From NCBI RefSeq assembly GCF_905475395.1, contig NC_058341.1, positions 67,649,501-67,713,500 on the forward strand: 64,000 nt of DNA, read 5' to 3'. Source of the stretch: Chrysoperla carnea (Eukaryota > Arthropoda > Insecta > Neuroptera > Chrysopidae). Below, in pieces: positions 34,776 through 63,992 of this stretch. A program made the translations under genes and the position numbers. Each line of letters opens with the position of its first letter. Positions within the stretch are counted from its first letter, which is position 1. The notes under the pieces were generated by a model, which was given only the letters and a program-made list of their open reading frames with translations, was not told the origin of the DNA and ran no database searches.

Positions 34776-34789
34776 TACTTGCATTATTT

Positions 34790-41401: not shown

Positions 41402-41472
41402 GCATCGTTGGTTCAGTGGTAGAATGCTCGCCTGCCACGCGGGCGGACCGGGTTCGATTCCCGGACGATGCA
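41402..41472 (+). tRNA. tRNA-Gly-GCC: tRNA-Gly (anticodon GCC)
   Basis: The 71-nt cloverleaf reads by eye. The 7-bp acceptor stem is GCATCGT / ACGATGC with discriminator A. The D arm is GGTTCAGTGGTAGAA (A box), the anticodon loop is CTGCCAC with GCC, and the T arm is GGGTTCGATTCCC (B box). No intron. A run of T starting at 41478 serves as the Pol III terminator. It lies about 450 bp upstream of the scramblase ATG on the same strand. Confidence 0.97.
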
Positions 41473-41924: not shown

Positions 41925-42142
41925 ATGTCAAATACATTGGAAGAAAAATTTGAGAAAATGGATCCACAAGAAACAATATTAAAATCATCATTTAAAATGG
42001 ATAAAAAAATTACAAAAATTGATGAACAACTATCAGGAGTGAATCATGATTTGAATAATGTACTTAATAAAAATAATCCATCAGACCTTAGTGACATAAG
42101 TGATATATTAAAATATGAAACAGCATCGATAACTAACGAGAG
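41925..42142 (+). CDS. Scramblase exon 1, initiator exon (residues 1-72)
   Basis: Begins MSNTLEEKFEKMD and runs open to a donor AG|GTAATA, leaving phase 2. The sequence is charged and probably helical (LEEKFEKM, KKITKIDEQL), with no signal peptide. This ATG was chosen because it opens the only frame that joins exon 2 in phase. Upstream untranslated exons cannot be excluded. Confidence 0.7.
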
Positions 42143-45100
42143 GTAATAATTCTGTTTAACGGCTGCAACACAAGAGTGCGTATAACTTTAGCAAATAATC
42201 TGAAATGGAATAGAAAGTATTACTCAAAAAGGTGGTATAAGATTGACGTTCATCCATCTGATAACCAGATGAGACATATATTTTGCCTATGATAGCTTGT
42301 ATTTTACACAAATAATTAAAAACTGTACATATTTATTACCTGCGTAAACCAATCCCTATCCCTATTTTGAGTGTTATTGAAGGAGGGATAAGTGAGAGAA
42401 AGGGAGAGAAAGGGAGATGAAAGGTATAACAAGGTGGACTTTACCAGTCCTTACTTTTAAGGCCAGTGAAGCGGGCAGGTATCAAGCTAGTCAAATAATA
42501 AAATTTCATAAAGAGTATGTCTCATCTGGGTATCAGATAGGTGAAGATCGATTTTATACTCCTGTATCTTATACTCCTGCGATCTTCAGTACTAGGTTAG
42601 GTTAGGTTATACTGCTGGCTGTCCACGATGGACACACTTAGGCTATAAAGCCCATTGTGATACCATATGGGTTTTACCACCTTCCCGCTGATAATTTCAT
42701 TTATCAGCTCCCTAATTTCAGAGGCTGAGTGCACCTCCTTCATGATGCATATTCCATGCACTACACCAGCCCATCACAACTATTAATTAAATTAATTTTG
42801 TTGCGACGGCGGGAATCGAACCCGCTACCCTATGCTTACCGCGGAAGGAATTGGTTACGCATTAACCTACTGAGCTAATAGGGCGACATCTCCAGTACTA
42901 TAAACCAAATATTTTATATACCCAGTTTGCTAGGTATTAATAACTGATAGTTGCAACTCGCCAACTGGCGATAATAATTCGTACTAACAAAAATCAGAAG
43001 AAGACTCGAATTCAGTAGTTAGAATTTCAACTTTAAGGCAAATAAAAATATTCTAATTGAAATCAAATAAATCCCGCCAACTGGCGATAAAAATTGGTTC
43101 TATTAACAGGAAGTGGACCCTTTTTTCAGTAGTTCCAATTTAGACCACCTGATTACTCACCCTTTATCAATAGCAATATTATTCGGGCTAGAATGAATTT
43201 CATTTCATATTTACTATTTATCCAGTGCCAATATAAAATCAATTTGGATATGAAAAGGTATCAAAAAAAGCCAACGTGCATTAACTCAATTCTTATTAAG
43301 TCAATGTCCTATACTCAATCTGAAAATTATCACTGTTGGTCCAAATCTATCGATTTCACTTAAACTTTTCAAAAAATTTATCTGCAGTCGTTGAAGAGGA
43401 TACTCCACAGAAGATTCAGATTATTTGCTAACTTTACGTAATTCAAACTTGGTAAAATAATTTCCATTTTTCGCTAAACTAAAAATTATCAAATGATAGT
43501 TGTGCTGGTACAAGTGGATTTAATGGTGGCGCCACAAGTAGTGGCGGTGGAAGATTTATCGATAGTAATAGTAGTAATAATGGACCAGTATCACGTAAAC
43601 AATTACGTTTTCCAGATGATTATGATGATTACGAAGATGATGATTCGATTAATAATTTTGCTACAGATGGTGTGCATAAAACATTATCGATGACAAATCG
43701 TTATGATCCTGATGAGGCATCAACAGATACGCTGCATCAGCAACGTTCATCGATATGCAATATATCGATACATTCACAGGCAATTAGAGTTGACATACCA
43801 TCGATATATCGAAACATCGATATTCGTTATTTAAAAAAGGGAGGAAACAGCAATTATATAATTCACCATATTATAATTCACCATTCAATTTTGATGGTGA
43901 ATTATGTTATAACTTAATATAAGACGAAAAGTAAGAATAACAAGGGAAAACAAACAATTGACTGAGTCAATTGTTGAAATACCATGTGTAGATAGTGTTG
44001 ACTACTGTGTCTCATTACACATACATGCATGTCACACATACATAACTGAAATTCCCATATAATACATACTATACAATTTGCGTCTAATTTTCAACCTCGC
44101 GGGTAAACAGTGACGTTTACGAAAAGATGTTTCAAATAACAGTTGTTAATTTTATTATAAGGAACATTTTTAACAATTAAACTTTTGTTTTATCTCTAAC
44201 TCTTTACAAGATGGGTCCTTTGGGCCCAAGACCCAATTGACCCATATTGCTCATTTACGAAATCGACCCCACTTTTTACGCCCTTAACACGCTGTAAAAA
44301 TTTCACCTTGATATGTCTTTTCGTTTTTGAGTTATCGTGTTGACAGACAACCGTAAATGGACTAATTAGATGATTTTATGAACACCTATTCGCTCCGTGC
44401 GTGAGTTTCGTTTCCATGGTAACGATACACTACTTTAATTATAGAATTGTATAGATGCATATATAATTGTATGGATTGCATTTAAGACTTACATTGAAAA
44501 TTTAATATTATTGTCTCACAAATTTAAATAAATACTTAATTATGATAATTTACATTTGAAAAATAATATTTGTGCAATTTGATTTCTTATTTTCACAATT
44601 TTTAATGCAGTTTAATTAATTCGTGTTTTACAATAATTTTAATTTGACATTTCTATAACATTAACATGTAAAGAACAAATTAACATGCAAATTAGTAATA
44701 ACAACCCCCTTTAACGCCAAAATTTTTCACTGGAAGCGCTGGCATCGATTTTATTGTCCCTACCATGACTACGCACACAACGAATACCAAAATTTTGTAC
44801 GTAGCATTAATATTTTTAACGATGTTCCAGCATGGTATTTGCAGTTTCTATGTTAAAGCAATGGTACAATTTTTTTTTCGACAGAATTTAACGAAAAATT
44901 AAATTTAAAAATTTAATAATGCTTACTATTAATTCCCAAAGTTTCAGAAATTTTGACCGTTTAAAATGGGAAATAATTATGCCAACGTCCCAATTTCGAT
45001 CAATTTACGTCAAAATTAATATCTCGAAAGTGAAAATTAATTTCTAAATTTTTTTTTTAGAATTGTATTGTATAAACATTTTTTTCTACTTTTTCTTCAA

Positions 45101-48100
45101 TATATAATAATATCATAAAAAATAGTTGGAGAGACCGGACATTTTACATGCTTTAAATGGGACATGAACCTCAAAATCGCGAACTTTGTCTTTAAATATC
45201 TCGCGATCTAAACGGTCAAAAATTATGAAATTTTAGGAATTCATAAATAAAGCTATTATAAACCCGAGAAAAAAAATTCGGCCAAATCTGTCGAAAAGTG
45301 ATTTCATGCTGGTACTACCTTAAGCGTTACAAACTTGGGAAAAAACTTAATATACCTTGATATATATTACATATATACTGGACTAACTTTCAAAATATCG
45401 TAAATTGAAAATTTTGTTTAATTATTTTGCTTTCGATATTTCGAAAACCAAAGCAGATATCGAAAAAGTTTATTCTTATTTTTCGTCCACATTCATGAAG
45501 TTATAACAAAATTCAACATCAAAGTTGAAAATATAAGGTACAAATAATTTTAAACCTTAGTCTGTAGTTGCTTTGGCGCTGGTACTGCCTTAAAATAAAT
45601 TAAATAATCGCGGATTTGTGGTTCTTGAAGCATAAATACTAGTATTTTAAAATTTATTGTACTAAAATGTAAAAATTTCAATACACCGATGTTTTTCTTG
45701 ATATATCAATCGGTGAATTAAACTTTAAAAATACCAGAACAATAAAAATACTTCACTTTGAAAAAAGTACAATATTCACGTAGGCTATGGGTGGTAGCGC
45801 TGGTATTGATATTCCTAGTACAGCATCTGAATCAGGTACAAAAGGATCGAAGGCTTTTACAAATAATACAACATCGATATCATCATCGACTATATCATCA
45901 TCGGATCAAAATAATCGACAACAATGTTCATTAGCTGCAGCTGGTACAAGTGAAAGAAACGATTACAATTTTTTGGGTAATGAAATTATATATGCTTTTA
46001 AAACGCATTTCCAACAAATTTGACCAGATAACTAGAGACCAAAAATGCATGTCCCTTTATAGCTAGATGTTAAAAAACAGCTATCGGTTCGGTACAAAAA
46101 CTACTACACTTGGGACATATAACTGAGCATCATAATACCTCAATACTCAATCAATTGCAATATTTTTTGTACCGCTAGCTTTGTTTTTTCATGAAATGTG
46201 AAACTATAAAAAAACATAAAAGTTGCTCTAATTTGACTCCTAGACATTTTCGGTCTATAAATTTTTGTTCATGTTTGTTGCAAATAAAATTTAGTATAAT
46301 ACCTCTCGAAGCGAAAATCGAATTACCTCTGTAGATATATGTTTCGTACAAATAATACAGAAAAACTTGATAGCAAAAATTTGATATGTAGTCCGATCCG
46401 AATAACGAGAACCTCGAGCCTCGATTGTAAATTTGATCTTTATAGAAAAAATTTCCAATGTCTCCTTTAAAACCCCTTAATTCTTTTTACTTTAATAATT
46501 AACCTTAAAATAACTTCAAAGAACAATTGTATCCAACAGTATAGGATCACTTGACTCCGATGAGACGGCAACGCGAATTTTGGAATTTTTTTCAATTCAT
46601 AAAATACTTGTAGACATTCACACAGAACCTCGTGTCATTTGCCCCAAGCAAATGATAGACGATTAATCGAAATCAGACTAACTTTATTAATTGATAATTT
46701 TCGAAAAATCATTCAGGAAAATTATCATGCCATAATTTTCAGCGGATCGAAATAGCCGTGCTACCACCAATAGATCGACTTTCACGAAAAGTTGATTTTC
46801 ATGAATGGCTGTTCTATTTTTAGAGAAGGTGTATAAGTTTTAATATTTTTTTAACTGAACAGATTCGAAAAAAGTCTTATCAATTATGAATCTGATATTG
46901 AATTTTATTTTAAACGATCTTGAAAATCTATATCAAATTTAAGGTAATCGAAAGAATCCCTGACCGCTGTATATGGAGAATGACTTTCGGTCAAATGTCG
47001 CCAGAATTTGGGAAGATATTCTTCTTGTCATTCTGAGCAAATGAATCAATGAACACAAATCTCGCTAACGTACCGTTTTCGAGATATTCCATATCAAAGG
47101 TTCTGAAAATGTAATTTTTCAGAATTATTCTTCTGCAAAATAAAAATTGCGTACGTCCGTGCGAGTGAGTGTGTGTGGTTATGTATTTTAAGAACAAACT
47201 AATCTTTTTCTAATTCTTTTAGAATAATTTATACATTCAAAACTTCAGGACCGTTTTCATGATGTCGAGCATTATAACTTCTTTCAACAATCTGGTTGAT
47301 GAATATCGCATGTGAGCATCGTATCGGACAAAACTCAAAAATTTTTAAGAGCTACCATATTCAAGTCCATTTTAGTTATTCTGTAACTTTGGCAGAAAGT
47401 AACTCATTCATGTCAACGTTTCAGGCATAAATTATGCGATCGCATATGATATAGAAACTCTTGAAATTCAATGAAAATCGGGAAATTTGACATGGAATAT
47501 GTCAATTTGTGCTCCATGTATAGTGATCAGGGATCCTTTAACCTATCAATTTTTAATTGAATTGCTTTTCATGATAAAACGATTTTTTTTTGATTTTCTT
47601 ATATCAAGTTCTGCGTATAACATTTTTACTAGCCTAGTTGAACGAGTTTTTGGTATTTTTTAGTTAAAAGTATATCACAAATAGAAAATTTCTCAACAAT
47701 AGCAAATCATAACAATAACAAGAGAACAGAGCCATTAAATCATAGTGCCTCACAACCAGATAACTTATCAACATATTTCATAAATGATAACAATAATAAT
47801 AATAATACTACGGTATCCTCATTACATTCAACAATGGAAGCCATATTAAATGTACATCGTACACAACAATACTATACAACTAATTCAGATTTGGAACCGT
47901 TTAATAACAATCAAAAATCAATATTAACAATACATCCACAATATCGTTTATTAGGTACGTAAAGTAAGCTATTCAATTACGAAAAGCGGAATAGCCCTAA
48001 AAACCATAATTTCGAATTGGAAAATGGTACTTTCCAAGCTATTTAAAAAAATAAAAACACCAAGAAATAGGTAAACTTGCAGGGATAAAGTAAACTAGTC

Positions 48101-51100
48101 AAAACCATAAGCATAGTCTATTTAATTAGTTCAAGTAGAAATAATGGTCATAAAAATACGTGTGATAGCTTTTTGTATTGGAAATGATGTTTAAAAAAAA
48201 AGTGCTAGGAGTATTTTTCAGCACAAAAAAATTGAAAAAGTTATAAACAATTAAAGATGGAAGAAAGGTTATCGATTATCACCAATATTTTATAAAATAT
48301 TAATATTTAAGAAATTTAAAAAAAAGATTCTTCAAGAGGAGAATATTTCATATAAAAAACTTTTCCCGAAGTCTATCTTGATTATAATTTTAATTTAACG
48401 CTGAAAATATATCTTCTTACATCATTTTTAGATTTTTGTTACCTATGTCATCAAAAAACCAAAAAAATTTTTAATAATGGGGGTAAAATTTGTTGGCTTC
48501 GTGGAGGCTTTCTTATACATATACCATAGAAGTTAACATAAAACTGTCTATAGGCAGAGTGGTCGTCTAAACAGTTGATCGTTATAGAGAGAGGTCTAAA
48601 GAAGAGTTCTCGGTTCTATTCGTTACCGGTTCTCCGGTGCTATTGGTCGTATAATGACAAATAAATAAGAGGAATATTTGGTTTTTCTTGTAAAATAATA
48701 CGGTACAAAATTGTTTTAGACTCTCTGAATGATGAGCAAGTTGAAAATTCGGATTCAGCAAGTACCAATACGTCGAATTACACTCCTTGTTCGGTAGGAT
48801 TTGTAAATGCATACGAAATACACTCGATACAAATCGACGAATACGCGCGTACACTAAATATAAATATAAGTTGATTTCGAATACAATCGATTTTTGAGCT
48901 AAATTATAGATATGAAATGTAAAAATTTTAAATTATTAGGATTTTTCAGAAAAATATCGACTTTTAAATTAACTGGAAATACTTTCAACTCAAAATTTTG
49001 ATACCATTATTGACTTTCTATGCTCTTAAATATGAAAATACGAGTTTATAAAGATTTTTCGAAAAAGTATCGTTAAAAGTAAAGTTTTGAGGCTGGAAAA
49101 CACGAAATATGGCAAAAGATAGCTCGAAAAAGTCTTGAAATTCCTATGTGCTTTTTTTTTTTATCGGTCAGTGGTTATAATTTTGACTAGCTAAGTTTAT
49201 TGCTGTAACCTCGGAATGAGATCATTTTCTCTATGTTTCGGCTTTCTTTTGATTTTTAAAACAGTTCGAAATTAATACATTCAGCTTGAAATAATAATTT
49301 ATGTCGCTATTACATTTCGGAATTGACTAGAGCATAAGCGCCCATAACATAACAAGACACCCTAGATTTAAAGCTAGCTTTAAGCTAGATTTAAAAATTT
49401 ATAAAAAATAACAAATTTTTACTAGTCTGTCGTGCGTAATAAGTTTTCAGCCATTTTCACTAAATAATTTTGAATTATTCGATGGGGTGCTTTTTTATGT
49501 TATGAGCTTTTATACCACTGGCTTACTTTACTGAATGATCTTCGTTATTAGTAAGTGATACAAATTCACCAGCAATCATTGAATCAACAATATATGGTAA
49601 CAATGGACATCCAGAACAATTAATAACACAACAATTAAATAATGAGTATCCAATCTTGTCAAGACATTCATCAACAGAAACCATACAAAGTAAATTATCT
49701 GCAATGCAATTAAATGAATACACAGTGATGGGAACATTATCCTCAAATGTCTCCCAACAACAGACGAATAAAGAAGAAAAATTAAATGGCAAGGAATCAA
49801 ATTGTATGTTTACAATGAAATCTTAATATGTTTCTTAATAATTTTTTTGTTAAATGGGAACTAAATAAATTTTTTGACAGTAATTTCATGTATATTGTTT
49901 CGTTTAATGGACCCGGCACGATTAGATAGGAAAATGGCTTTCTGTGAAACTTTTTCAAACTACCCCCAAAATGTTCTTCGGATTATGCTGATCAAAAGCT
50001 CTCACCGCCACAAAATTTTTTAACGGCCAGTTTTCGAGCTACAGGCGATCAAAGCTACACATATATTATAGTTATAATATACAAGAGGGTTATTTTAATC
50101 TATAATGGCTAATAGGTTGTTTTCTAGTTAACCAATAAAAAAATTACTCAACAAAAGTTGCAGAGTTTGATGGGACATCATGTTCTGACATCAGATTGGA
50201 CCTAGTTCTTCACATTTCTTTAATAGTCAATTTAAATCTAAAACGGTAAGAGATAGAATAACATTTTCACTTAGAAAGTTGGTCCTCATACAAAAACTGG
50301 CATTTTTCATCTAAACCATTTTTTCGAAAATCGTTAGCTTTTCGAGAAAATGCGCTTTAAAAATATGTCATAATTGCTTTTAATCGAAAGAAAACACGCT
50401 AACTATGGAAAAATCCTTTAGGCAAAAGTTGTCAAGTTATCTTTGACCTACAATAATCGATAAACTTCAAGCATATTTTTTTTCGATTAAATACAATAAT
50501 GACATATTTTTTAATTGCATTTTCTCTAAAAGCTAATGTTTTTCCATAAAATGTCTTTAGCAAAAATTGTTAGTTTTTTATGAGGATTAACTTTCTAACT
50601 TAAATTGTTATTCTATCTCCTACAAAAAAAAAAAATCTATCTATCTCATACTAAATCTAAAACTATTAAAAAACCCAAAGAACTAGGCCCAATCTGATGT
50701 CAGAACATGACGTTCCCATTCAAAATCTGCAAATTTTGGTGAAGTTATTTTTTTATTGGTTAACTACAAAACGATCTATTAGCCATTAAAATGACCCACC
50801 CTGTATACTATAACTATAATACATGTGCAGTTGTGATCGCACGCCCGGTGTTCGAAAACTTCTCGTTAAAAAATTTTGTGAAAGAGATCCGAATAATATT
50901 TTGGGGGCGATTAGAAAGAGTTTCACAGAAAGCCATTTTCCTATCTAATCGCGCAGGATCCTTTGTTAATCTATCTGAATAAAAATAATGTATTAAAATA
51001 TTCTATATCTGGGTTATTTTAAATAGAGCAATCTTGGAAAAAACAAAGCAGGTTTTTAAGGACACAGTTTAAGTGGTTCCATCTTCTTTTAATTTTGATT

Positions 51101-54100
51101 GAAAATATTAATATTTAGTAAAATTATAAATTCGAATCAATTAAATTTTAAGCTCGAAAACACACTTTTCGAGCCTAATGGTTTTCAAAGATTGGTGTCC
51201 AAGTTTCCAAGGTTGGTCTCTCTAAAATAACTCAGGTATAGTGAAATATATTTGAAAATTTTAGTAGCCTGGCCTAAAACAAGATGGAAATACTGTCAAA
51301 AAATAACCAGAATTGTGTTCTTTTTGCATCGTTGACTTATGTGTTAGTAAACAAAACCGTCAAGTCAACGAAGCAGAAAGAACACAAAAAGATAAATTAG
51401 GCAGGACATCTAGGACGTAAAGTTACAATTTAAAAAACTTAAAGATTTTAAATAAATTTTTTCCTGAGTTGGTAGATCTGACTGTAAACTCTGTTCTTAG
51501 GCTTGGCTACCCGTTAACGAGAATTTTGTTAAGTAGAATTTTGTTAAGTAGGTTATAGAAAAGTGACAAAAATACAAGTTGTTAGGTTATCGTGACACCA
51601 CTGATACTTGGCCAATGATAATTTTTAGAAGTATTGTGTGTATCGCCATCCAGTATGGGTATGAGATCCATACTGCATTGACTCGTCCGCCATAAATATT
51701 GCTAATGTTATAATTCTCTCAATACAGTATACAATATGGTTCAAACTGATACTGACATAGTGATATCCACAAAATATTTCTTACCGTGATATGTTTGCTG
51801 GTGTTATCAGCGAAGATTATTATAATTATCGAAAATCCCGCTTTTATCCGGAAAAATCGAATATTCTAGGTTGCCTCAATCTGCCATACTTAACATTTTT
51901 GTCAAAAAATACATACCTACTAAGTTTTTACAAACCAAAGAAAATTTTTGCAAAAACCAGCTTTAGACATCAAAGTTTTTTCTTTCGTTTATTGACGTCA
52001 CTCGCAAGGTTTAATACAAATCGATTGACGTCAGAATCATCAAAATCGGCCCACGCATTGGGCCTTTAGTGCGCCATATAGGAACACACATAGATTTTCG
52101 AACCAAATCTGCTTTTTATGCCACAAAGAATAAAAATCTTCTACAAAAATTTGAAGTTTCAATTAAAAAAACAAATTTTCATCCTGATTGATCATAAAGA
52201 CCTTTTTTTTATTTCCCTACAAAATCGATCCGATACACATGTTTTTGCATTTTTTGTTTCTCCTTCCCGTTTTCGAAACATAAAGGTAGAATTGTTTCAC
52301 TATAAACAGTCAAACTGTAGCTGTTTATTAAATTTCTTAAATTTTTTTAGCAAAATATGTTGGAAGGCCCTCAGAGCATGATTTAATTCGAGGCTTAATT
52401 ATTAAAAAATTTGGATTAAGTGAATTTGGTTCTAGCAATACTGATTCGAATATATCAATTGAAGAAAAACTTGTGTCATCGATAGATTCGTTCGACGAAA
52501 ATGAACAATACAATAACAGAACAATAACATCTCGTAAAAACAATTTTAATTTAACTACTTCTATAAAGGAATATGTTTCTAAAAACTATGTAGAAATTAT
52601 TTTGTAGGCTTTTATAATCCACAAAATTCTCTAAATTCTTGAATAATTTTAGAAACGCAATCTTCTCACAACGCACGACCAAAGTTTTAAAACTTAAAGG
52701 TGTAACTTTTGTTAAAATATGTAATCATATCATGTAAAGTTTTTCTCTATTATTATTGATCATTCCAGAAAGCAACTGGCTCATACGAGATTGAATAAGT
52801 TTTCTAGGCTTGGAAACCGTTTCTGACATGAGAAGTTAAAAAAGTTCATATAGACATTGAATAAAAAAATGAACTGGTTTCTATGCGCGTGATACATTTG
52901 GCCAATTTTATTAAATCATAATAGGGAATATTCATGTATTTTTTTTATATTTTTAATTCATTGTTTACACCGTTATAACATAGTAAAAAATAAAAATACT
53001 GTAATTAAATGTAATAAAATATTTAAAACACAATATCATTTTGAGATGTTTAAACGCAGTATTTTGGCGCTCTCTGTTGATGACGCATAAGTACGTGATC
53101 TGTCAATTGATGACAGTTCAATGTATAATTTACACTTTAAAAAACTGAATTTACAACACAGAATTTACACTCGTTATTATTAAGTTTTCTAATAAAAAGC
53201 CGTAGAATAGTATAATTTAATGAAATACCATATAAAATGTAAGTAATTAATATCATACAGTATGTCAACAAACTTGACAAGCTCGTACTATGATGTCACG
53301 TCCGTATAAAAATTTGAATTTCTGTTTTAAAAATTTTTGAATACCCTCACTGAATTTGTACTTTTAATTAATTTTAAGTAATTAAAAATATATTAATTAC
53401 TAAAATAATGGTTTAGTTGAAATGTCCACTCATTAAAGTTACGGAAGAAAAATATTTGAACCAAATTTAAATTTCATGAATATTCCCTATAGCAAGGCTA
53501 ATGTTGGGGTGCCATGAAATCTAGTTGCATGTAAACAATCAATTTGTGTTGTAACAATCTTATAAGTTAACAGTTATCAGACTGGAATAAATATTCATGT
53601 TTGGTTTTTAAGTTAGTAGGAGTAACCTTCATTTTATCAAAGAACAAGCGAAATCAAGGATTCTTTATAATAACTTGGGGGAAATCCGCTAAGCGAGGAG
53701 ACAACTAAGTTGCCCTTGGAGAGGAAATTAGGATTCAAGCAAAGAACATAGCACAATAGTAACCTTCAGTGAACGCTCTTTGCTTCTGATAGTAAAATGT
53801 CTTTATTACCAGGAGCAAAGAACATCTACTGAATGTTGCCATTATGCTCGATTCTTATCTACTTAGAGACAGTCTCTACTCTCAGATGCAAAGAACTTCC
53901 ACTGAACGTTGCCATTGTGCTATATTCTTATCTGCTTAGAGTCAGTCTCTACTGTCAAAAGCAAAGAACATCCACTGAATGTTGCCATAGTGCTCTATTC
54001 TTATCTACTTAGAGACGGTCTCTACTGTCAGGAGCAAAGAACTTCCACTGAACTTTGCCATTGTGCTCTATTCTTATCTACTTAGAAACAGTCTTTACTA

Positions 54101-57100
54101 TCAGGAGCCAAGAGCGTCCACTGAACGTCGCCATTGTGCTCTATTCTTAGTTACTTGGAGACAGTCTCTTCTGTCAGGAGCAAAGAGCGTCCACTGAATG
54201 TTGTCATTATGCTTTACACTTGGCTGGAAACCTAATTTCCCCTCCATAAAGGACAATTTCGTTGGCTTCTCGGTAAGGATGCATACAAAGGTGACTAAAA
54301 GTCACTACCCAAAACTGTGAAATCAGGTGTTTGTTATCAACTATTAACTTAAAAAGAATTTTTCAATCACAAATAAGATTATATTAATTTTACGCCGAAT
54401 TTTTTTCACAAATAACGTAATATAAATTTTTATGTGGCTTTCTAACCTTGATATCTTGAATGATGTTTATTTTCAAATCTTGTGCTTGTAGTATCTTCGA
54501 TCAAAATGTCCACAAAATTTATTCAAGAATCAAAATTCCGCATTTTTGCATTATATTAAATTCTCTGTAATACAATAGCATTAAAAGACCATCTTAAGTA
54601 TCATTTTGTAAAATTTAACCAAGTTTTATTGTTTCAAGTTAGTAATATATTGGGTTCATTTTCCAAGAAAATCGATAGACTAATAGAGCTTGAAGAACTT
54701 TACTCAAAAGAAGATGTTGTAACCTGCGCCAGAATCAACTCAAGAGATAATAAACGCCGCGTATCTTTTGCTGACCAAGAATTTAATAGTGTAGAATATT
54801 GTACTAAATATCATGAAGATTCCACAAATGATGAGTTTGACATCGAAACAGCAACCAGTAATGATCAATCAACAACTGAATTCGATGATAGATCAGAAAC
54901 AGAGAGTAATACTCAATGGCTTATAGGAGAGAAGAATGCAAGTCATGGTTTGAGTAGTACTGAATTGCGGTCACAATCTATACGAAATTTATCAACATGT
55001 AAACCCTATGTTTGTTTTTTTAATGCAGGATTGATTTTACAGTTGTTAGCTACAAAATTATCTGTCGTAAAAACAATTATGAACTGTATTGTTACGAATG
55101 TGTGATAAGAAAGATCTGACTATCCTTAGGCTTTTGCTTTGTACCATACATATATGGTGAAACATTTAGACCAGGTGGTCTAAGATATGGTATAAGGTCG
55201 ATCTTCACCCATCTGATAACCAGACGAAACATATTTTGGATCAAAGTTTATTGATTTTTAAACACTCCATCATAGTTTTTCTGTCGAAAAGTGTTCATGG
55301 CTAATTTTAATCTTAATTCATTTTAACCAACTTTGTCCATGAACGGTTTTTCAGGCAAGCTTATAGGTATCATTATTTTCGTAATTAAATTATCTTTCTT
55401 CTAATACCGATTTCGATTGGTTAACAGATCTGTGTAGTTACCTATATTGACTTACCTGTTCATATGGTATGAACAGATCTACACCGATCTTTTAACCAAT
55501 CGAAATTGGTATCAGAAGAAAGATAATTTAATTACGGAAAAAATAATGGTATAGGCTTGTTTGAAAAAAAACCGTTCATGGAACAAATTGGTTAAAATTA
55601 ATTTAATTCAGATGTTTCGACACCAAAACGCAAGTGTTACTAGATTTTTGGTATTACTAAATGTAACATTCAATATGTTTTAGTATGTGGAGTGTTAGGT
55701 CCACCGGTATTAAACTTGAAAGAGTTTTCAGTATTGTATACAAAACAAGATATTTCAACGTCAATGGAAGATCAAAATTTCAGCACAAATGATGAAGTGA
55801 ATCAGTCTGCAATCACGTCGAAATCACGCATTCCACTGTTAGATACCAAGTCTAAAGAAACACACGATGTAACAACATCTTGTAGGTTTTACCATAGGCG
55901 AAACAACATAGTCAATACGTAATCAAATGTATTCAATGTACACAGTACAAATAACTTGTCGTCATTTAACATGTAAAGTGTCACCCTATTAGCTCAGTTG
56001 GTTAAGGCGTAACAAATTCTGTCCGCGGTATGCTTAGGGTTTCGGATTCGATTCCTGCCGTAGCAACAAATTTATTTTATGCTAAAAGGAGGTGCACTCA
56101 GCCTCTGAAATTGAGGAGCTGATAAATGAAATTGTCAGCGGAAAGGTGGTAAAACACATATATGGTATCACAATGAGCTCTATAGCCTAAGTGTGTCCTT
56201 CGTGGACATCCAATCTAACCTAACCTAACATGTAAAGTATAGATATCCATACTTTTTGGAAGACATTTTTACTTCGCGTTTTTGCTACAAAAAGTAATCA
56301 GTAACTTTATACATCAGAGCTTGCGTCAAATCCGGTAGTTCTGATTTTTGCAGACTTGTTTGTGATGTTGGTCTAATAAATAATCTCGAGCTCTGAACGC
56401 AACTGTGTCAAAATTCGAAAAAGCCGTGAAAATTTCGATTTTTTTCTGATTTTGGGGATTATAACACTAAAGAACTAGTTTTTGTTGGTACCTTTTCTTT
56501 TTGGACTAGTTTTTGATGGATGTTTTTAAATTAGACAAACTTTAGATTAAAAGTTTGCTATAATATTGGACTAGAGTTGTTTCTGTAGACCCAATAGTTT
56601 CCGAGATAAAGCCTTTCAAAGTTTATCATTTTTTCGAATTTCACAATTTTTTGCAATATTCTGTCGTGTGACTGTTTATATGAGGGTGTATAGGTGTATA
56701 AACAAGTCAGTTTGGTCAGAAAGTGTGGTCTTTAAATTTACACAAATAAGCGCGCTTACAAGTTCGTAATAGCAAATAATGCTGAAAAATCATGAAAAAA
56801 AAAAAAAAAATATTGGATCTCATATTTTGAACTATTCTCACCTCTTTTTGTACTTGAGATTTTGTCCTTAACCTCATCGTTTTTCCAAAAAATTTGTTAT
56901 TTTGAAAAAAATTTGATGCTGACAAAATTAACGATTATTGTGTGGTTTTGATCAATTATTTAATTCAAAATCAATAATCTTAAAAAAAAAAGTTCAGGCA
57001 GTCGTAGGGACTGCCGATAGAAGTGAAAACGGAACTATTAAATTAAGACTAATTGAAATTATATGCAAAAATTATATGCAATTTTTTATGTTTTATTTAT

Positions 57101-60100
57101 TAGTTACATATGATGGGTTAAACAAACCATGAACAATTATAAATACAAACTGTAATAATATTATGTTATATATTATGTTATATATACCTATCCAAAAAGC
57201 GTCCAACGCGCACATAATAAAGTCAGAAATAGTCGATGTATTAGTGTATACGTGTACACAGGCTACTGCGCGTGTACATGTCCCCATAGCTATAGATATA
57301 CTATTATCATTTGGGTGTCGGTGACGCCAACCGATGATTTTACCCTCTACCAAAACGCTCAACGCGCCTAAAGAAGTTTTCACTTCAAAAATTTTATTCT
57401 CGGGGTTTTCGAGATGTTGACGTTTTAAACTTTTTTGGGCTAAAATTTTGTTAACAACAAGTTTGACGATTTTCGGGAGTGGTTTTGATCAAATATTTGA
57501 TTAGAAAACCAACTGATCTAATAGTTTTTTTTTTTCTATTTTCATGATTTTTCAGCAATATTTGCTGTTTCGAATTGATAAGTGCGCTCACGCACGTAAA
57601 TTTATAAACAACACTTTCTGTTCAAACTGACTTTTTTTCTAAATCCTCATACAAACCGTTTGCACTCGGTCCCATAAAAATCGGAGGTGTACCTTTAAAT
57701 TCCGAGCTTTTGATTATTTTTCGGTTTTAATAACTCTATTATATCTGGTGCAATCTTAATTCCCTGATTTAACTTGTAACAGATTCAACAAGCCTTACAA
57801 CAACGCCAAGATCTCCAAGCGTAACTGACTCAATAGAAAATCAAATATCAACTGATCAGCCATCCATATCATTAAATCGTACACAACGATGGACTTGTGT
57901 TCATGGTTTACCACCCGTCTTAGAATGTTTAGATACAACTGAATTTATATTAATTGACTTAGATAATGGTGCATTAAAACGTAATCATGGCATACATTCA
58001 TATAACAATGAAAAAGTTTTTACGTTTAAGAATCGCATGGGTGAACTACTATTTTATGGCATTGAACATCCACAATTTTGTTCCACAAATACATGTGAAC
58101 CTCATCGACCATTTGAAATGAATATATATGATATTGATGGTAGAGAAGTAATTAAATTATCTAGGTTAGTTCAATTACATCGTATAAAAGTTTTTAGTGG
58201 ACAAGTTTTTAAGAAACGGTTCGTTTTCTTAAGCATAGGAGTATGGGTACCGCCAAGAGGAGGGCTGGTGGAAACAGCTGCCCCCCCTTTAGAGATTCCC
58301 AATGAGATTCGAGAGCTCCCTCTAGAGATTGCCAAAAATGATTGAAAGTCTACTCATTTGATTTAAAAATGTAATATTCTTCTGAATTCAAAATTTCATT
58401 TCAAACTTTCATTTTTATTGATAAAATCGCATAAACACTACCATTACTGCGTTTTTTCCTCTCCTTATATTTTGACTTGAATGGCATGCTATTTTTATTG
58501 AATGATTATATGAAAGAAAAAGCTTTACCCTTCATATATACCTAAATGATACTGTAAAAATAAGTTCGCAACCTAAAAACTGGCGTGAAAGTATTATAAA
58601 ATGTAATAGTAATAATATTGAAGTTATAGAGTGTTATTTTGCAGTGTAAAAACAGTATGTTCGCCTGACACGTAAATAAATGTAATCTTCCCCAAAAATT
58701 GATTAGGATTGCTTCATCCAAATTCCAAAGAATCATCAATAATCAATTAAGCAAAATGTACCATTTCTAAATATGTCAAATATGTCTCTGTTTGCCCTTG
58801 TTAACAATTTTAGCAAAACTTTCAGGTTTGCCTCTCTCTAGCCCCAGCACAGGAGGGCATGCAAACTAGTTTACTGCAAAGCAAGCGATTACTAGGCGGT
58901 CCTCCGAGTGCGCAGCGTTTTTCTTGGCTTACTACATACAGCCTAAATAAGTGAAATACGCAATTTTGAACTGGGATCCACTGTAAGTCCAGATAATTTG
59001 CTGCGATTAGTTCGCCTACTGCATACTTCATAACTTCATACGCAGCAGATGTAGTGAATAATTGAATGGCTTGTAATAAATAGTTTAACTGTGAGAGAAC
59101 AAATAGCATAATACAATCTCAGAGTTGACTGAGATTAAACAATGGAGAAAATTTTTTAGTTTCAAACACCTTTTAAACTTTTACATTTTTCGACCCTTAC
59201 AGTACATTCCGAGAACAATATAATTTATAACTAATTTATCCATAAAAACTGATAGTGGATATATTTTAACAAAATGCATAAAAGTACTTGTTTGTCAGTG
59301 CTGGATTAAGGCAGCGCGGAGCCTTTAGCAAGTTCGATCAACGAGTGTGTGTTTTTTTAGTCTTCGAATGTCTACCTGGGGCCCTTTAGGGGTAACCTTT
59401 GCATACAAATTTCATAAAAATTTGTCTACTTCCTTCCACTTTTACTTTTTTTTAGTCTTCGTTAATCTAGCTGCAGCCTCCACCAGGAAGGCTCTTCTGC
59501 AGTACCTGTAGTATTTACTACTTTTTCTACATGGCTAATCTGCCACGGTTGTTTGATTATAAATCGATTTATTCGATAAAATACATCTTCTTGACATAAT
59601 GAATTTTCTTAGGATAATATAATTTTCCAAAAACAGTTATTCGATTAACAATATCACTTGGTCTTATCCTTAGAGCTCAATGTCTTGTAGATAGTGAGAT
59701 AGGGATTTGGTGGACAAATTTATCGTCTGGTTTAGGATGATAAGATACAAATTGCATATTTATGACCCGATTTATAGAAACCATCTTGTAAATTGCCACG
59801 ATATTACTGATCGCATGTAATTACGGCTTTAATATCTTCGGCACTTTATTTTATTTTATTTTTCTACCTTAGGTTTACCTCATGTATTGCCGGCTGTCTA
59901 ATACCATGTTTTTATCACACTCTGACCACATACTGCCCAGGACAAATACAATTAGGCAAGATTAAACAAGATATTACATTATGTATACCTTCATACACTG
60001 TGTACGATAATATGAATCGTGATATTTGTGTTGTACGTGGCCCGTTTGGTGCTTATTTTTCTGGTAATAATTTAACATTTTGTGTATACGATAATACTCA

Positions 60101-63100
60101 TGAAGGTTATGTTAATTGCGGTTTAATTACTGATCGTTGGACACATGAACAACAGTTTATGTTTAAAAATAATGTTTATGGTTAGTAAAATTCTGGATAC
60201 AAATATTGTCAAATTGACTACGACTGGAAATATGACGTTATGTATAGAGCTCAAGTCTATACATAACTCTCAATAGATCTTAGTCTAAGAGACGGTATAA
60301 GGTCGACTTTCAACCATCTAATAACCTGATGAGGCACTTATGAAATGTTATTGATTGATAAACACGCCTATGATAGCTTAACATTTAAAAATATTGATGC
60401 TACCAATAAAATTTTAGTATTGGTGTTCATAAAAACCATTTCTGGTTGTCCGTCTGAATGTCTGCCTGTCCTTCCGCCCGTGATCACGATAACTCTAAAA
60501 CGAAAAGAGATATCAAGCTGAAATTTTAATAGCGTGCACAGGACGTAAAAAGTGAGGCCGAGTTTGTAATTGAGCAACATATAATTGGGTCAAGGGTCCG
60601 TAGGACCCATCTTGTAAACCGTTAGAGATAGAACAAAACTTTCAATGGAAAAATTGTTTCTAATAAAAAATAAACAACTCTTTGAAACATTTTTTTGTAA
60701 ACATTTTTTTTTCAGTTTCATCACGCAAGCTGTATAGTATGGATTATATGGAAATATCAGTTATGTATGTGTGACACGCATGTATGTGTATTCGGACAGT
60801 GTAATCAACACTGTTTATACATGGTATTTTAACAATTAACTCAGTCAATTGTTTGTTTCACTTGTTAATAAAATTAATTTTAAACAATTTTTTTGCAGGC
60901 AAGTCTATACCCATTACTTTCGTAATTAAATTATCTTTCTTCTTATACCAATTCATATATATATAACATATAGATAGAGGATTTAATGGGTCCTGAATTT
61001 GAGATATATAGATATATACTAGCGCCACAAAATGAGTGGTTAGAACTAAAAAAACATAGAAATCTCTATATGACGATTATAATCACGCATGCATTGATTT
61101 GTTTTAATTAGTTCCCAGCAAGCTCCTGAGGCGCTGTTTTACGCCATATAGATCTTCAATCCAGTTATATAGAGATCAGTGTACCAATCGATTGGTTAAC
61201 AGGTCGGTAGATCTGTTCATACTCTATGAACGGTCTATGAACTCTATGAACAGGTAAGCCAATAAAGGTAACTACACCGATCTGTTAACCAATCGAAATT
61301 GGTATCAGAAGAAAATTATGGTATAGGTTTGCTTGCAAAGAATAGTTATGAAAAAAATTAATTTAATTAACCATGAACACTTTTCGATAGAAAAAGTATG
61401 ATAGGAGTGTTTAAAAATCAATAAAATTTCATAAAAAAAAGAGTGTGTGTACTTATGTACACGCGTTAGAAGTTATACTTCTTTGGCGTATGAAAAAAAT
61501 TTAAAATAACTCAAATGCAGTAGTAATCGACAATAAATATTAAAATCAATCAAAAAGATTTTGTTTAAATAAAAAATATTTAATTAACGTAAAAATATTG
61601 AAATTTTCATCAACTTGATTCACTGTAATATTAACAGATTCTGATCGAGGCTCAGGAGTTGCAGCTTGGTTTGAATCCATGTTACATGTTTGTTGCCGTT
61701 GTTCATAAGGTCGCTTGGGTTCTGCTGTAGATATATTTCCTTCCGATTTAGATTTTTTGCGCTTTCGGTAACGCCGACAAATTTCTGCATTAGTCATCGG
61801 CATCGCAACTAAAATGAAAAAAATCACAAATAAGTAACATTTAAATTATAGAACATGCTGTAAAATGTCTTCAAAAGAATTTGATTTTTTGATAGTATTC
61901 ATGATTTTCGTGAATGAACTAATTTTGGACTTGCCAAGTATTAATATAGTTTACAATTAATCATTGTAAAATACATTAATTATTAATCTAAAATAATATT
62001 AATCTAATTATTAATCTTTGTAATCAATATTTTCACAGTTAATAATTATCACTTGAATTAAAATACTTGCCAGTATATTGAAGTACAATGCTAGATGTTT
62101 TCTATTAAATGCCGGAAAATTATTCAAGTAATCTGTAATATAAATTAAAAAGAGATGATTAAAATTATTCGATTCGATTCACAAAATGATAAAATATTAT
62201 TATCTAAAGTAATAAATAATAAATAATTAAATTTTATTATTATTTGATTATTTGTTAGAAAAATAATAAGTTCTTTAGAAATATATCTATATATTATACT
62301 TACAAAATTAACCTCTAATATTTGAAAACACTTAAAGTTTTTACAGTTTTTTCACAACACAATGTCAAAAGTTTACAAATAATATTTATATATGTAATAA
62401 ATTGAAGAAAAAGGAATAATTATATAAAATTAATATTCAAAATTAATTATTCATATGAATACTATATTTCACAACCATTGACTTGAACTGGCTCAGGGAT
62501 ATAAGTACTGTGTACTGTATAGTATGAAGACTCAGTACTGTAACTATATTCAGTGTTGATATATTTTTTTATTATTTCAATTCTGTGGCTAACTTCACCA
62601 TGTCGTTCGTGCGCGCGCAGCTCACAAATTCACTCTCATCAAAACGCGCCAAAAGAAGTATAACTTCAAAAATGTATCTCATTTGGTTATCAGATGGATG
62701 AAGGTCGGTCTTATACCGTCTGTTAAGACTACTCCATCACCCAGTATTTCGAAAATGAAGAGTCTTAGACAATATGTTTATTTGAAGTTTTTTATTTCAT
62801 TTGATGCAAGGAACGATTTCCCGAAGTTTATCAATGCATTGAATCATCATTTGCAAGTTACATTAGAAGTAATTGGGCATTTTTTATTATCAGCAAATAC
62901 AATATACGTCGATATAAACCAAACATCCTGTAAAAATAAATATACGAAATTCGTAGGCCCTTAAGCTTAATCTTTCTTTTCCAAATGTAAGCCAAGATTT
63001 ATCACATATGGTACTTAGATTTTTTATCATATGTAAGAACAAATAATTTAAGTTACAATATCTTTGTAAAAATCATTTTTTTACAACATTGTAAACAATA

Positions 63101-63793
63101 TTTCTGTTAAATATTATATATCTATGCGAGCTAACATACATAGTTCTTTTTTCTATCGCAATACGGAGTCTTTCTTAGCATCAACGTCTCATATGGTAAA
63201 GTTTTAGACTCTACGAGAGGTACGAATAAAGTCATAAAACCAGTCGTAGTTAATTTTTTTCTTGAGTAAATAAAAAATTGTATGTATTAATTGTACTAGG
63301 TGTAAAATTTCCATTAAATTTTGAACCAAAACGTAAAATACTATTGCTAAGTGCGGCGGTGCTTTTGAAATACATTTATTTTTCTGGTTCCTTCTTTCGT
63401 CGTCAAGTCAACGCTGAAGAAGATTATGTTGAGCCATTGACAACGGTATCTACACCAGTTTCGCCAATTCCCACTACATTATCATCGCATCCAGTAGTTG
63501 TAAAACAACCAGAGTTAAGTACCAAAACAACAGCATCTATTGTAAGCTATGAACCAACGAACTCTGTGAGAGAGATTCGTGAACAGTTTAAACCATCTTC
63601 GAGAGTGTCTAATACAAATTTTCCTAGAAGGCGTTCGGTCACAAAAATTGGTAAACAGTATAACATCTTAATTGATGAGTCTTCATCATCATCTACAACA
63701 AAAACTGAACCAATGCCTGAACCAAAAAATTTTCATCATTCATCTATTGAAAAATCAATTCCAAAAGGGTTCAGCACAGAAATTGAACTCTGA
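41925..63793 (+). CDS. Phospholipid scramblase with very long N-terminal extension (11 exons, about 1052 aa)
   Basis: The model joins 41925-42142, 43500-43779, 45784-45976, 47664-47954, 49552-49803, 52351-52533, 54639-54998, 55684-55881, 57783-58164, 59873-60180 and 63300-63793. The total is 3159 nt, 1053 codons with the stop, and every splice phase matches. Exons 9-11 match the scramblase family: GLPPVLECLD and FILID near residues 700-716, GREVIKLS near 778-785, a Cys-containing patch at 790-798, then VNCGLITDRWTHE and GVKFPLN leading into a hydrophobic helix at about 902-917. Family members are single-pass membrane proteins linked to bilayer lipid mixing, usually 220-400 residues long. Here about 690 residues of Ser/Asn/Thr/Gln-rich, probably disordered sequence precede the domain, and about 135 follow the helix. 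Exon 9 has no ATG before the domain, so upstream exons are required. The family call is firm. Exons 1-8 have no recognised homology and rest on frame, splice sites and codon-like composition. Confidence 0.85.
42232..42566. mobile_element. MITE-1 copy in intron 1
   Basis: Left end GGTATAAGATTGACGTTC with CATCTGATAACCAGATGAGA; right end TCTCATCTGGGTATCAGATA with GAAGATCGATTTTATACT, inverted. Interior shortened (335 bp) and replaced by unrelated GGGAGAAAGGG-type sequence. Confidence 0.75.
42595..42887 (-). mobile_element. tRNA-derived SINE, copy 1, in intron 1
   Basis: On the minus strand the head has a Pol III A box (TTAGCTCAGTAGG) and B box (GGTTCGATTCC). The body then has GGAGGTGCACTCAGCCTCTG and CTAAGTGTGTCCATCGTGGA, and the tail is AACCTAACCTAACC. 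Flanked by a 13-bp TSD, ATCTTCAGTACTA (42582-42594) and ATCTCCAGTACTA (42888-42900). Confidence 0.9.
43500..43779 (+). CDS. Scramblase exon 2 (residues 73-166); donor uncertain
   Basis: The acceptor ATAG|T restores AGT (Ser) from phase 2. The protein is Gly/Ser/Asn-rich, followed by an acidic Asp-rich stretch (DDYDDYEDDD). The frame stays open past 43779 into AT-rich repeats. The next exon needs phase 0, and two candidate donors give it: a GC donor, CAG|GCAATT, at 43780, or a GT donor, AGA|GTTGAC, at 43789, which adds three residues. Neither is strong. Confidence 0.6.
43945..45378 (+). repeat. Rep-1 copy F in intron 2, broken by two inserts
   Basis: Head GGGAAAACAAACAATTGACT to GATTTTATGAACACCTAT is intact; an unrelated insert follows (44388-44776). 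A short Rep-1 piece, ACCAAAATTTTGTACGTAGC, then leads to a second insert (about 44822-45318), and the tail TTAAGCGTTACAAACTTGGG. The word GCTGGTACTRCCTTAA ends the second insert and recurs at 45572. Confidence 0.7.
45784..45976 (+). CDS. Scramblase exon 3 (residues 167-230)
   Basis: Starts after GTAG with GCT-ATG-GGT in phase 0. An in-frame TAG lies immediately upstream, so the exon cannot extend further left. Encodes a Ser/Thr-rich segment (TTSISSSTISSSDQNN). The donor is G|GTAATG, phase 1. The acceptor has a poor pyrimidine tract. Confidence 0.65.
45977..47663. other. Intron 3
   Basis: 1.7 kb with no recognisable mobile element, RNA gene or ORF, in contrast to its neighbours. Donor GTAATG and acceptor TTTTTAG bound it. 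Confidence 0.55.
47664..47954 (+). CDS. Scramblase exon 4 (residues 231-327)
   Basis: Acceptor TTTTTAG and donor G|GTACGT, both phase 1, length 291 nt (a multiple of 3). Asn-rich, with a homopolymer encoded by an AAT/AAC run near 47790-47805, then a segment ending HPQYRLL. No domain recognised. Confidence 0.7.
47955..49551. other. Intron 4
   Basis: 1.6 kb. Its only recognised content is the short TIR element near its 3' end (49343-49504). The minus-strand ORF at 48582-48854 has no recognisable features. Confidence 0.5.
49343..49504. mobile_element. Short TIR element in intron 4
   Basis: Ends CATAACATAACAAGACACCC and GGGGTGCTTTTTTATGTTATG-type sequence are inverted; 162 bp. A decayed relative lies at 1255-1380. 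It ends 48 bp before exon 5. Confidence 0.65.
49552..49803 (+). CDS. Scramblase exon 5 (residues 328-411)
   Basis: Acceptor TTATTAG and donor T|GTATGT, phase 1 at both ends, 252 nt. The composition is polar, with many Gln, Asn, Ser and Thr (PEQLITQQLNNEYP, SSNVSQQQTNKEEK). Its acceptor lies 48 bp past the right end of a short terminal-inverted-repeat element. Confidence 0.7.
49905..50965. repeat. Rep-4 foldback, full copy, in intron 5
   Basis: Outer arms (GATTAGATAGGAAAATGGCT, TTTCTGTGAAACT, CAAAATTTTTTAACG, TATTATAGTTATA) and inner arms (TTAACCAATAAAAAAAT, GACATCATGTTCTGACAT, AAACGGTAAGAGATAGAATA) are all inverted at 50600-50965. The element is about 1.06 kb and can pair over most of its length. 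The plus-strand ORF at 50791 is an arm, not a gene. Confidence 0.75.
50966..52350. other. Rest of intron 5
   Basis: 1.4 kb with two chance ORFs of about 90 codons but no recognisable domain. The polypyrimidine tract and TTTTTTTAG acceptor are at its end. Confidence 0.45.
52351..52533 (+). CDS. Scramblase exon 6 (residues 412-472)
   Basis: Strong acceptor TTTTTTTAG; donor C|GTAAAA; phase 1 at both ends, 183 nt. It includes a short more ordered-looking stretch (SEHDLIRGLIIKKFGL) before returning to Ser/Asn-rich sequence. The open frame continues past the donor, so a longer exon is formally possible, but this donor alone fits exon 7. Confidence 0.65.
52534..53686. other. First part of intron 6
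   Basis: AT-rich, no recognised repeat or gene. Confidence 0.45.
53687..54278. mobile_element. TIR-bounded element with a 73-bp minisatellite core, intron 6
   Basis: The left end CGCTAAGCGAGGAGACAAC with AGAGGAAATTAGG returns as the complement CCTAATTTCCCCTCC ... TTGGCTTCTCGGTAAGG at the right. Between them lies a tandem array. An element made of terminal inverted repeats around a minisatellite is a known MITE-like layout. Confidence 0.65.
53816..54235 (+). repeat. 73-bp tandem repeat, about six units
   Basis: CAAAGAAC / CAAAGAGC words start at 53816, 53889, 53962, 54035, 54108 and 54181, an exact 73-bp period. Each unit contains CCACTGAATGTTGCCAT, GTGCTCTATTCTTATC and CTTAGAGACAGTCTCTACTG. 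Units differ by about 5-10 substitutions. Confidence 0.9.
54639..54998 (+). CDS. Scramblase exon 7 (residues 473-592), carries an RVSF motif
   Basis: Acceptor TTTCAAG and donor T|GTAAAC, phase 1 at both ends, 360 nt. It begins with a probable amphipathic helix (KKIDRLIELEELYSKED). It then has KRRVSFADQEF (RVSF at residues 513-516), which fits the RVxF docking consensus for protein phosphatase 1, and ends in an acidic Ser/Thr tail. Apart from that motif no family is recognised. Confidence 0.7.
55178..55625. mobile_element. MITE-1 copy in intron 7
   Basis: Left end GGTATAAGGTCGATCTTCAC, then a long palindromic core centred near 55450 (TAATTAAATTATCTTTCTTC and its complement). The right arm stops before the terminus. 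The core GTTAACAGATCTGTGTAGTT is the best preserved version in the window. Confidence 0.75.
55684..55881 (+). CDS. Scramblase exon 8 (residues 593-658)
   Basis: Acceptor GTTTTAG and donor T|GTAGGT, phase 1 at both ends, 198 nt. Encodes CGVLGPPVLNLKEF followed by a Ser/Thr/Asn-rich linker. The MITE in intron 7 ends only about 60 bp upstream. Confidence 0.65.
55980..56226 (+). mobile_element. tRNA-derived SINE, copy 2, in intron 8
   Basis: Same family as 42595-42887 on the plus strand: TTAGCTCAGTTGG, GATTCGATTCC, GGAGGTGCACTCAGCCTCTG, tail CTAACCTAACCT. Exact 12-bp TSD AACATGTAAAGT at 55968-55979 and 56227-56238. About 45 bp shorter than copy 1 owing to a deletion after the tRNA part. Confidence 0.9.
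56680..57660. repeat. Foldback element in intron 8
   Basis: AACAAGTCAGTTTGGTCAGA, AAATTTACACAAATAAGCGC and GCTGAAAAATCATGAAAA at the left pair with their complements at 57545-57640. The loop holds a decayed TIR-1 end (AACGCGCCTAAAGAAG, 57370-57390) and a GTGTACACAGG/TGTACATG stretch. Confidence 0.65.
57783..58164 (+). CDS. Scramblase exon 9, start of scramblase domain (residues 659-785)
   Basis: Acceptor AACAG (phase 1) and donor AG|GTTAGT (phase 2). After a Ser/Thr linker the scramblase fold begins at about residue 695: CVHGLPPVLECLD, EFILIDLDNGALKR, FKNRMGELLFYG, then CEPHRPFEMNIYD and GREVIKLS. These correspond in order to the first half of the family's beta-barrel. No ATG precedes the domain in this exon. 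Confidence 0.9.
59296..59548. mobile_element. hAT-type MITE in intron 9
   Basis: Left end CAGTGCTGGATTAAGGC; right end GCTAATCTGCCACGG is a degraded complement. Flanking octamers TTGTTTGT and TTGTTTGA form an 8-bp TSD with one difference. 253 bp. Confidence 0.55.
59873..60180 (+). CDS. Scramblase exon 10, second half of domain (residues 786-888)
   Basis: Excellent acceptor (TTTTTCTACCTTAG), phase 2 in and phase 1 out. The patch CIAGCLIPC stands where vertebrate scramblases carry their palmitoylated CCxPCC-type cluster, with fewer cysteines. It then has PGQIQLGKIKQD, YDNMNRDICVVRGPF and VNCGLITDRWTHEQQF, which align with the second barrel half (family pattern: VGKISKHWTG). Confidence 0.9.
60375..60870 (-). 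repeat. Rep-1 copy G (reversed), inside MITE-1
   Basis: Reads in reverse complement from ACAAGTGAAACAAACAATTG through TCTATCTCTAACGGTTTACA to AGCATCAATATTTTTAA; the terminal hairpin is missing. Confidence 0.75.
61440..62674 (-). mobile_element. TIR-1 element (about 1.2 kb) inside MITE-1
   Basis: The right end, read in reverse, gives GAAGTTATACTTCTTTTGGC, then GATGAGAGTGAATTT, GCGCGCGCAC and CGACATGGTGAAGTTAGC, as at 15967. The left end is ACGCGTTAGAAGTTATACTT. It contains a short coding piece on the minus strand. Class unassigned; possibly a partial autonomous member. Confidence 0.7.
61546..61803 (-). CDS. Putative basic N-terminal exon of a TIR-1 protein
   Basis: Starting at the ATG just inside a good acceptor (TTTTTTTCATTTTAG, minus strand), the frame reads MPMTNAEICRRYRKRKKSK and then a polar Glu/Gln/Ser-rich stretch, ending after about 85 codons. 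NAExxRxYRxRKK heads are frequent at the N-terminus of transposon-encoded proteins in insects, so this may be one exon of the element's protein or a relic of it. No catalytic domain is present in the element. Confidence 0.35.
   Translation of the reverse strand: MPMTNAEICRRYRKRKKSKSEGNISTAEPKRPYEQRQQTCNMDSNQAATPEPRSESVNITVNQVDENFNIFTLIKYFLFKQNLFD
63300..63793 (+). CDS. Scramblase exon 11, membrane helix and tail (residues 889-1052)
   Basis: Acceptor GTACTAG completes a Gly codon in phase 1. GVKFPLNFEPKRK leads into the hydrophobic helix ILLLSAAVLLKYIYF, the conserved C-terminal anchor of scramblases. A further 135 or so residues, rich in Thr/Ser/Pro with basic patches (FPRRRS), run to TGA at 63791. 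Classical scramblases have only a short tail here. Confidence 0.9.
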
Positions 63794-63986: not shown

Positions 63987-63992
63987 AATAAA
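63987..63992 (+). promoter_or_regulatory. Poly(A) signal of the scramblase gene
   Basis: AATAAA lies about 195 bp after the stop codon. Cleavage would fall at or just beyond the window edge, so the 3' UTR is essentially complete at about 200 nt. Confidence 0.6.

Follow-up and report, generated by a model that had tools for sequence, protein, structure and literature searches.

Chromosome 5 of Chrysoperla carnea carries a scramblase-like gene of 11 plus-strand exons, in which the Scramblase domain lies behind a head of about 697 residues, encoded by exons 1-8 and the start of exon 9. The reading that we prefer, and to which we give about even credence, is that this one gene encodes a membrane-anchored and probably Ca2+-insensitive protein of scramblase fold, whose disordered head serves for interactions and includes a likely docking site for protein phosphatase 1 (PP1). 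What is new here is a C-terminal tail of 134 residues, the loss of several scramblase signatures, intron places that two other scramblases of this genome do not share, and the motif KRRVSFAD within the head. The window, that is, the whole stretch of DNA analyzed, spans 64,000 nucleotides (C5:67649501-67713500) of an assembly with 559,487,470 bases in 337 contigs, of which C5 has 76,427,138 bases; an excerpt of the genome publication gives 560 Mb, 337 scaffolds and a chromosome 5 of 76.43 Mb, and mentions an annotation by NCBI (PMC10116181).

The gene model was assembled from open frames, splice sites and phases as read in the DNA. A sequence-only reading of the same stretch had proposed eleven in-phase exons with about 1052 codons, and this is what we obtained: joining the exons by script gave 3159 nt, corresponding to 1052 codons plus a stop, with an open frame from end to end and no internal stop. 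All the features are collected in the table below.

Features of the scramblase-like gene, in positions of the window
Feature	Position	Strand	Remarks
Exon 1	41925..42142	+	residues 1-72; its ATG is the first one downstream of an in-frame stop; exits in phase 2
Exon 2	43500..43779	+	3' end uncertain: GC donor 43780 or weak GT 43789
Exon 3	45784..45976	+	5' end depends on the choice for exon 2
Exon 4	47664..47954	+	phase 1-1; Asn-rich
Exon 5	49552..49803	+	phase 1-1; contains Met379 and Met387
Exon 6	52351..52533	+	phase 1-1; weakest exon
Exon 7	54639..54998	+	phase 1-1; contains the RVxF motif
KRRVSFAD	54752..54775	+	residues 511-518, exon 7; predicted PP1-docking (RVxF) motif with RVSF core
Exon 8	55684..55881	+	phase 1-1; contains in-frame Met620
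Exon 9	57783..58164	+	39 residues ahead of the Scramblase domain, without any ATG, then the first part of the domain itself
Exon 10	59873..60180	+	middle of the Scramblase domain
CIAGCLIPC	59883..59909	+	residues 790-798; aligned place of the CCCPCC palmitoylation cluster
Degenerate Ca2+ loop, first half (KNNVY)	60165..60180	+	continues in exon 11
Exon 11	63300..63793	+	loop end GVKFPLN, C-terminal hydrophobic helix, 134-residue tail, stop
AATAAA	63815..63820	+	3' of the stop; second AATAAA at 63987

Nine of the ten introns have GT-AG borders, and introns 3-8 are all in phase 1, which makes exons 4-8 symmetric cassettes. At intron 2, the GC donor and the weak GT nine bases further on are both in phase 0 and compatible with an exon 3 that starts at 45784, and the two exons might also be paired in other ways. 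Two more GT sites, at 43897 and 43906, fall inside a repeat that starts at about 43883 and has at least 39 other matches in the genome (40 of 302 candidates scored), so exon 2 should end before that repeat. This junction, with its GC donor, and exon 6 are the weak spots of the model.

Coding potential was scored with a 3-periodic, order-2 model that had 28 of 30 kinase exons from the same genome as its training set (two loci had no open frame and were dropped), against a background of presumed non-coding DNA composed of window positions 1-41800, minus 34101-34900, plus locus L051. All 11 exons were positive in the open frame, with 3.1-12.4 bits per 100 nt; the training exons themselves score 5.2-20.7, a range that is not cross-validated, and head exons 4, 6 and 7 (3.2 each), exon 10 (3.6) and exon 11 (3.1) fall below it. 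Background open runs reaching the score of the exon were 0/45, 0/8, 0/75, 0/6 and 0/17 for exons 1-5 and 5/97, 0/3, 1/72, 0/2 and 0/5 for exons 6-10, the longest exons having few or no runs to be compared with and exon 11 no run of sufficient length; the highest-scoring background window equalled exon 3 to one decimal. Exon 6 combines the lowest support against background with the poorest donor (CTC/GTAAAA), and the donors of exons 5, 6 and 7 score below zero on a consensus matrix. A score based on synonymous choice alone, whose background contained an aldehyde dehydrogenase ORF (locus L053), was positive in nine of the 11 exons, with -0.4 for exon 6 and -4.9 for exon 7, and was higher in frame than in both other forward frames for every exon.

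Several other elements lie in and around the gene. A tRNA-Gly (gcc) gene is found at 41402-41472, about 450 bases upstream of exon 1. Intron 6 holds a tandem array with a 73-base unit (53726-54294), and introns 1 and 8 hold inverted copies (42616-42888 and 55979-56212) of a tRNA-like repeat with a CCTAACCTAACC end, presumably a SINE. On the minus strand, neither an ORF of 193 residues at 34202-34783, which we take to resemble the C-terminal part of a non-LTR reverse transcriptase, nor a short ORF with MPMTNAEICRRYRKRKK in intron 10 (61546-61845), presumably transposon-like, matched a Pfam family over its cut-off. An intact, intronless aldehyde dehydrogenase ORF of 529 residues (Aldedh, 294 bits) lies about 3 kb to the left of the window (L053:5171-6760, minus strand).

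The head was described beforehand as rich in Ser, Asn, Thr and Gln and several times longer than the proline-rich leader of classical scramblases. Our composition counts show it to be unlike such a leader: these four residues make up 40% of residues 1-690, and proline 2.9%. FoldIndex was negative for 434 of the 639 head windows, against 19 of 170 in the domain. Before the domain there is one PxxP (at 667) and no PPxY. We found no Pfam family for exons 1-8 with E-values up to 1, no matching chain in the PDB, and no place in the genome besides the gene itself. When searched alone against Pfam, exons 6 and 8 gave no match, and exon 7 gave a single sub-threshold one (NESP55, at 13.2 bits where the cut-off is 35.4). 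An origin of exon 7 from URI/Bud27 (PF12927) was dropped; this family had no match in the lacewing genome, nor in any of 14 control genomes, which makes the comparison uninformative. Among the open-licence PMC papers listed by a literature search, none described a long head of non-proline type on a scramblase from insects.

In agreement with the claim that only exons 9-11 are scramblase, the Pfam Scramblase family (PF03803) matches residues 698-917 with 99.6 bits (cut-off 25.4), covering profile positions 8-220 of 221. A phmmer search of this part against the PDB gave no match. To compare it at the residue level, we aligned the domain using MAFFT with those of three scramblases from the same genome, which were joined by eye from ORF lists. 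The C-terminal hydrophobic helix is present, and its Lys912 aligns with an Asp in the scramblase at C3:4567, which we take to be the counterpart of human Asp301. The helix is followed by the 134-residue tail (9.7% Pro), which the sequence-only reading had not mentioned. Human PLSCR1, as described in an excerpt, has a CCCPCC cluster, the nuclear signal GKISKHWTGI, a loop D[A/S]DNFGIQFPLD and the helix residue Asp301 (PMC8202325). In the window protein, the Ca2+ loop consensus DxDNFGIxFPLD is absent; in its place stands KNNVYGVKFPLN, with no acidic residue and with the Phe of position 9 kept, in an alignment that has one gap within the loop. CCCPCC is replaced by CIAGCLIPC, whose spaced cysteines could still be acylated, and GLITDRWTHE stands at the aligned place of the nuclear signal. 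The label of scramblase is therefore sound as to domain family, while activity is doubtful, because three signatures linked to it, namely the acidic residues of the Ca2+ loop, CCCPCC and the helix Asp, have been lost.

The three other scramblases place this gene apart from its relatives. Identity to the window domain is 28% for C6:36309, 25% for C3:4567 and 24% for C6:36746. C6:36309 and C6:36746 have one intron in common directly behind the Cys cluster, a place at which the window gene is uninterrupted; conversely, LSR/FTSC and YG/VKFPL mark introns that occur in the window gene and not in those two, and C3:4567 has no intron within the domain. Different intron places and low identity suggest that the window gene branched off long ago and did not arise by recent copying. 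The Ca2+ loop is kept in C6:36309 and C3:4567 and lost in C6:36746, so loss of the loop is not tied to the head; the Cys cluster is also lost in C3:4567. Two of these relatives deserve a description of their own. The one at C3:4567794-4568426 (L001:1393-2136) is intronless, has 64% of 210 aligned residues in common with C6:36309, and is devoid of the long proline-rich leader and the Cys cluster of the latter, so that it looks like a retrocopy; the ORF adjoining it, which we presume to be retrotransposon-like, has no Pfam family over its cut-off. The other, at C6:36746954-36748087, is a divergent scramblase without the acidic residues of the loop, about 437 kb from the classical C6:36309 on the same contig.

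The head had also been called not optional, on the ground that exon 9 offers no start before the domain. The ground is firm: no Met occurs between residues 620 and 744, and because exon 9 has none ahead of the domain an upstream start is needed. The conclusion is too strong, as Met620, Met387 and Met379 are all in frame, and exons 4-8 could be skipped singly or together because each enters and leaves in phase 1. The full head might thus belong to one isoform of several, with internal promoters or cassette skipping giving shorter forms, down to one that starts at Met620 with a leader of 78 residues, and the main product may then be a short form. An excerpt on Drosophila describes just such an arrangement for scramb1, where two alternative promoters give a longer and a shorter form (PMC11335299). 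Nevertheless, exon 1 offers a clean first ATG and scores well as coding sequence, and no internal promoter was indicated by the sequence analysis; we consider this alternative unlikely, while granting it a real chance. A different objection is that two adjacent genes have been misjoined, exons 1-8 ending in a terminal exon of their own and exons 9-11 having a separate, small first exon within intron 8. In its favour, no homologue of the head is recognisable in Pfam, the PDB or the lacewing genome, some donors of the head are weak, and intron 8 contains AATAAA at offsets 494 and 1335, though this is expected in AT-rich DNA. We looked in intron 8 for ATG-to-GT first-exon candidates of the right phase. 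None of the 23 found exceeds a total of 4.5 bits, the value of the best one, a four-residue ORF. The candidate at 57163-57316, with 51 residues, is weakly positive (3.9 bits, about 2.6 per 100 nt), which is near the weakest exons of the chain, and has a poor donor (-1.9). A start of its own just upstream of exon 9 thus found no strong candidate, and a separate coding first exon in intron 8 is not favoured; a start could also come from exon 8 itself, if it were preceded by a non-coding first exon. Moreover, the exon 8 donor, in phase 1, matches the acceptor phase of exon 9, and the coding score collapses beyond that donor. We regard a misjoining as improbable and prefer the reading that one gene joins exons 1-11.

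It could also be argued that the protein is an active scramblase in which the consensus residues have merely drifted, and that the head, neutral and disordered, serves no particular function. Losing consensus residues does not prove that scrambling is lost: the Scramblase match runs over the full length and lies well above its cut-off, and C6:36746 likewise does without the Ca2+ loop consensus. The leaders of PLSCR proteins are, according to the excerpt cited above, poorly conserved and variable in length (PMC11335299). Against this, three activity-linked signatures have gone together, and the frame of the head stays open across eight exons with coding-like scores, so we find this explanation quite unlikely and retain the one of a Ca2+-insensitive protein with an interaction head.

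The candidate partner of the head comes from KRRVSFAD in exon 7. We spotted this motif first and tested it afterwards. The pattern [KR][KR].?V.FAD appeared in 2 of 20,000 shuffles of the protein. In 623 open runs, each at least 60 residues long, from genomic loci that partly overlap and with seven left out (L037 and L054-L059), it had a single match, in L042, which is the window gene itself. Looser patterns arise more often: of 20,000 shuffles of the head, 6033 contained a general RVxF pattern and 279 contained [KR]V[ST]F. The genome has two CBM21 matches, both on C4, with KKKVIFAD and KKIVRFAD in their frame; near one of them (L057) there is an open frame of 522 residues with irregular IQTHSDLIIKEE-like repeats. 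Of the other elements of PP1 docking, the SILK motif ([GS]IL[RK]) is found nowhere in the protein, and a downstream hydrophobic pair, the alternative second motif, is not clear by eye. The motif region gave no phmmer match in the PDB, and none of the open-licence PMC papers listed by a literature search dealt with PP1 docking by a scramblase. KRRVSFAD as a putative PP1-docking site is a lead. Its RRVS also fits the RRxS pattern of kinase sites. Excerpts on the glycogen-targeting subunits of PP1 place docking sites at R63VSF in GM and R62VSF in GL (PMC4482762), and report that phosphorylation of the Ser within them drives the release of both subunits from PP1 (PMC9582199).

Taken as a whole, the preferred explanation would work as follows. 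The divergent barrel and the C-terminal hydrophobic helix most likely hold the protein at the membrane. With three hallmarks of classical scramblases gone (Ca2+ loop, palmitoylation cluster, helix Asp), Ca2+-driven lipid scrambling is unlikely, and Ca2+-dependent activity is probably reduced or lost. The disordered head, rich in Ser, Asn and Thr, is probably an interaction scaffold, by analogy with the unrelated leader of fly Scramb1-A, which probably binds Pyd (PMC11335299, excerpt). Its likely partner would be PP1, at KRRVSFAD, and phosphorylation of the Ser within the motif could switch docking off, as it does in GM and GL. Of all this, the sequence itself shows the gene model, the domain, the lost residues and the motif, whereas anchoring at the membrane, inactivity, the scaffold role, binding of PP1 and the phosphorylation switch are inferred. 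A bolder version, for which we see only a slim chance, is that of an ex-scramblase that has lost its Ca2+-driven activity and become a membrane-anchored PP1-targeting subunit, with KRRVSFAD recruiting PP1 and phosphorylation of its Ser releasing it. If that were true, kinase signals would set which membrane proteins are dephosphorylated. Whether PLSCR proteins are mainly lipid-moving enzymes or membrane-tethered adaptors has been debated; a protein of this fold that has dropped the Ca2+ loop, the cysteines for palmitoylation and the Asp of the helix, and that bears a huge scaffold-like head, would offer a natural experiment on the role of the barrel without Ca2+-driven activity.

With GM and GL the window protein has in common the RVSF core (PMC4482762, excerpt), and with the CBM21 proteins of the lacewing the core [KR][KR]-V-x-FAD; it differs from all of them in having no CBM21 domain according to Pfam and no G-x-x-L after FAD, which the CBM21 proteins have. 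Like human PLSCR1, it has a Scramblase domain over the whole length and a C-terminal hydrophobic helix, to which it adds its tail; unlike the human protein, as far as the excerpt describes it, it has no CCCPCC, acidic loop residues, GKISKHWTGI, helix Asp or proline-rich leader (PMC8202325). C6:36309, in the same genome, has an intact Ca2+ loop and a leader of 101 residues with 31% Pro, in contrast to the far longer and proline-poor head described here. In Drosophila, a Ca2+-insensitive mutant of Scramb1 fails in its role, and the leader of Scramb1-A (M1-G181) is proline-rich, whereas the head of the window protein is several times that length, with 2.9% Pro and no PPxY (PMC11335299, excerpt); what the fly and lacewing proteins have in common is a disordered N-terminal extension ahead of the barrel.
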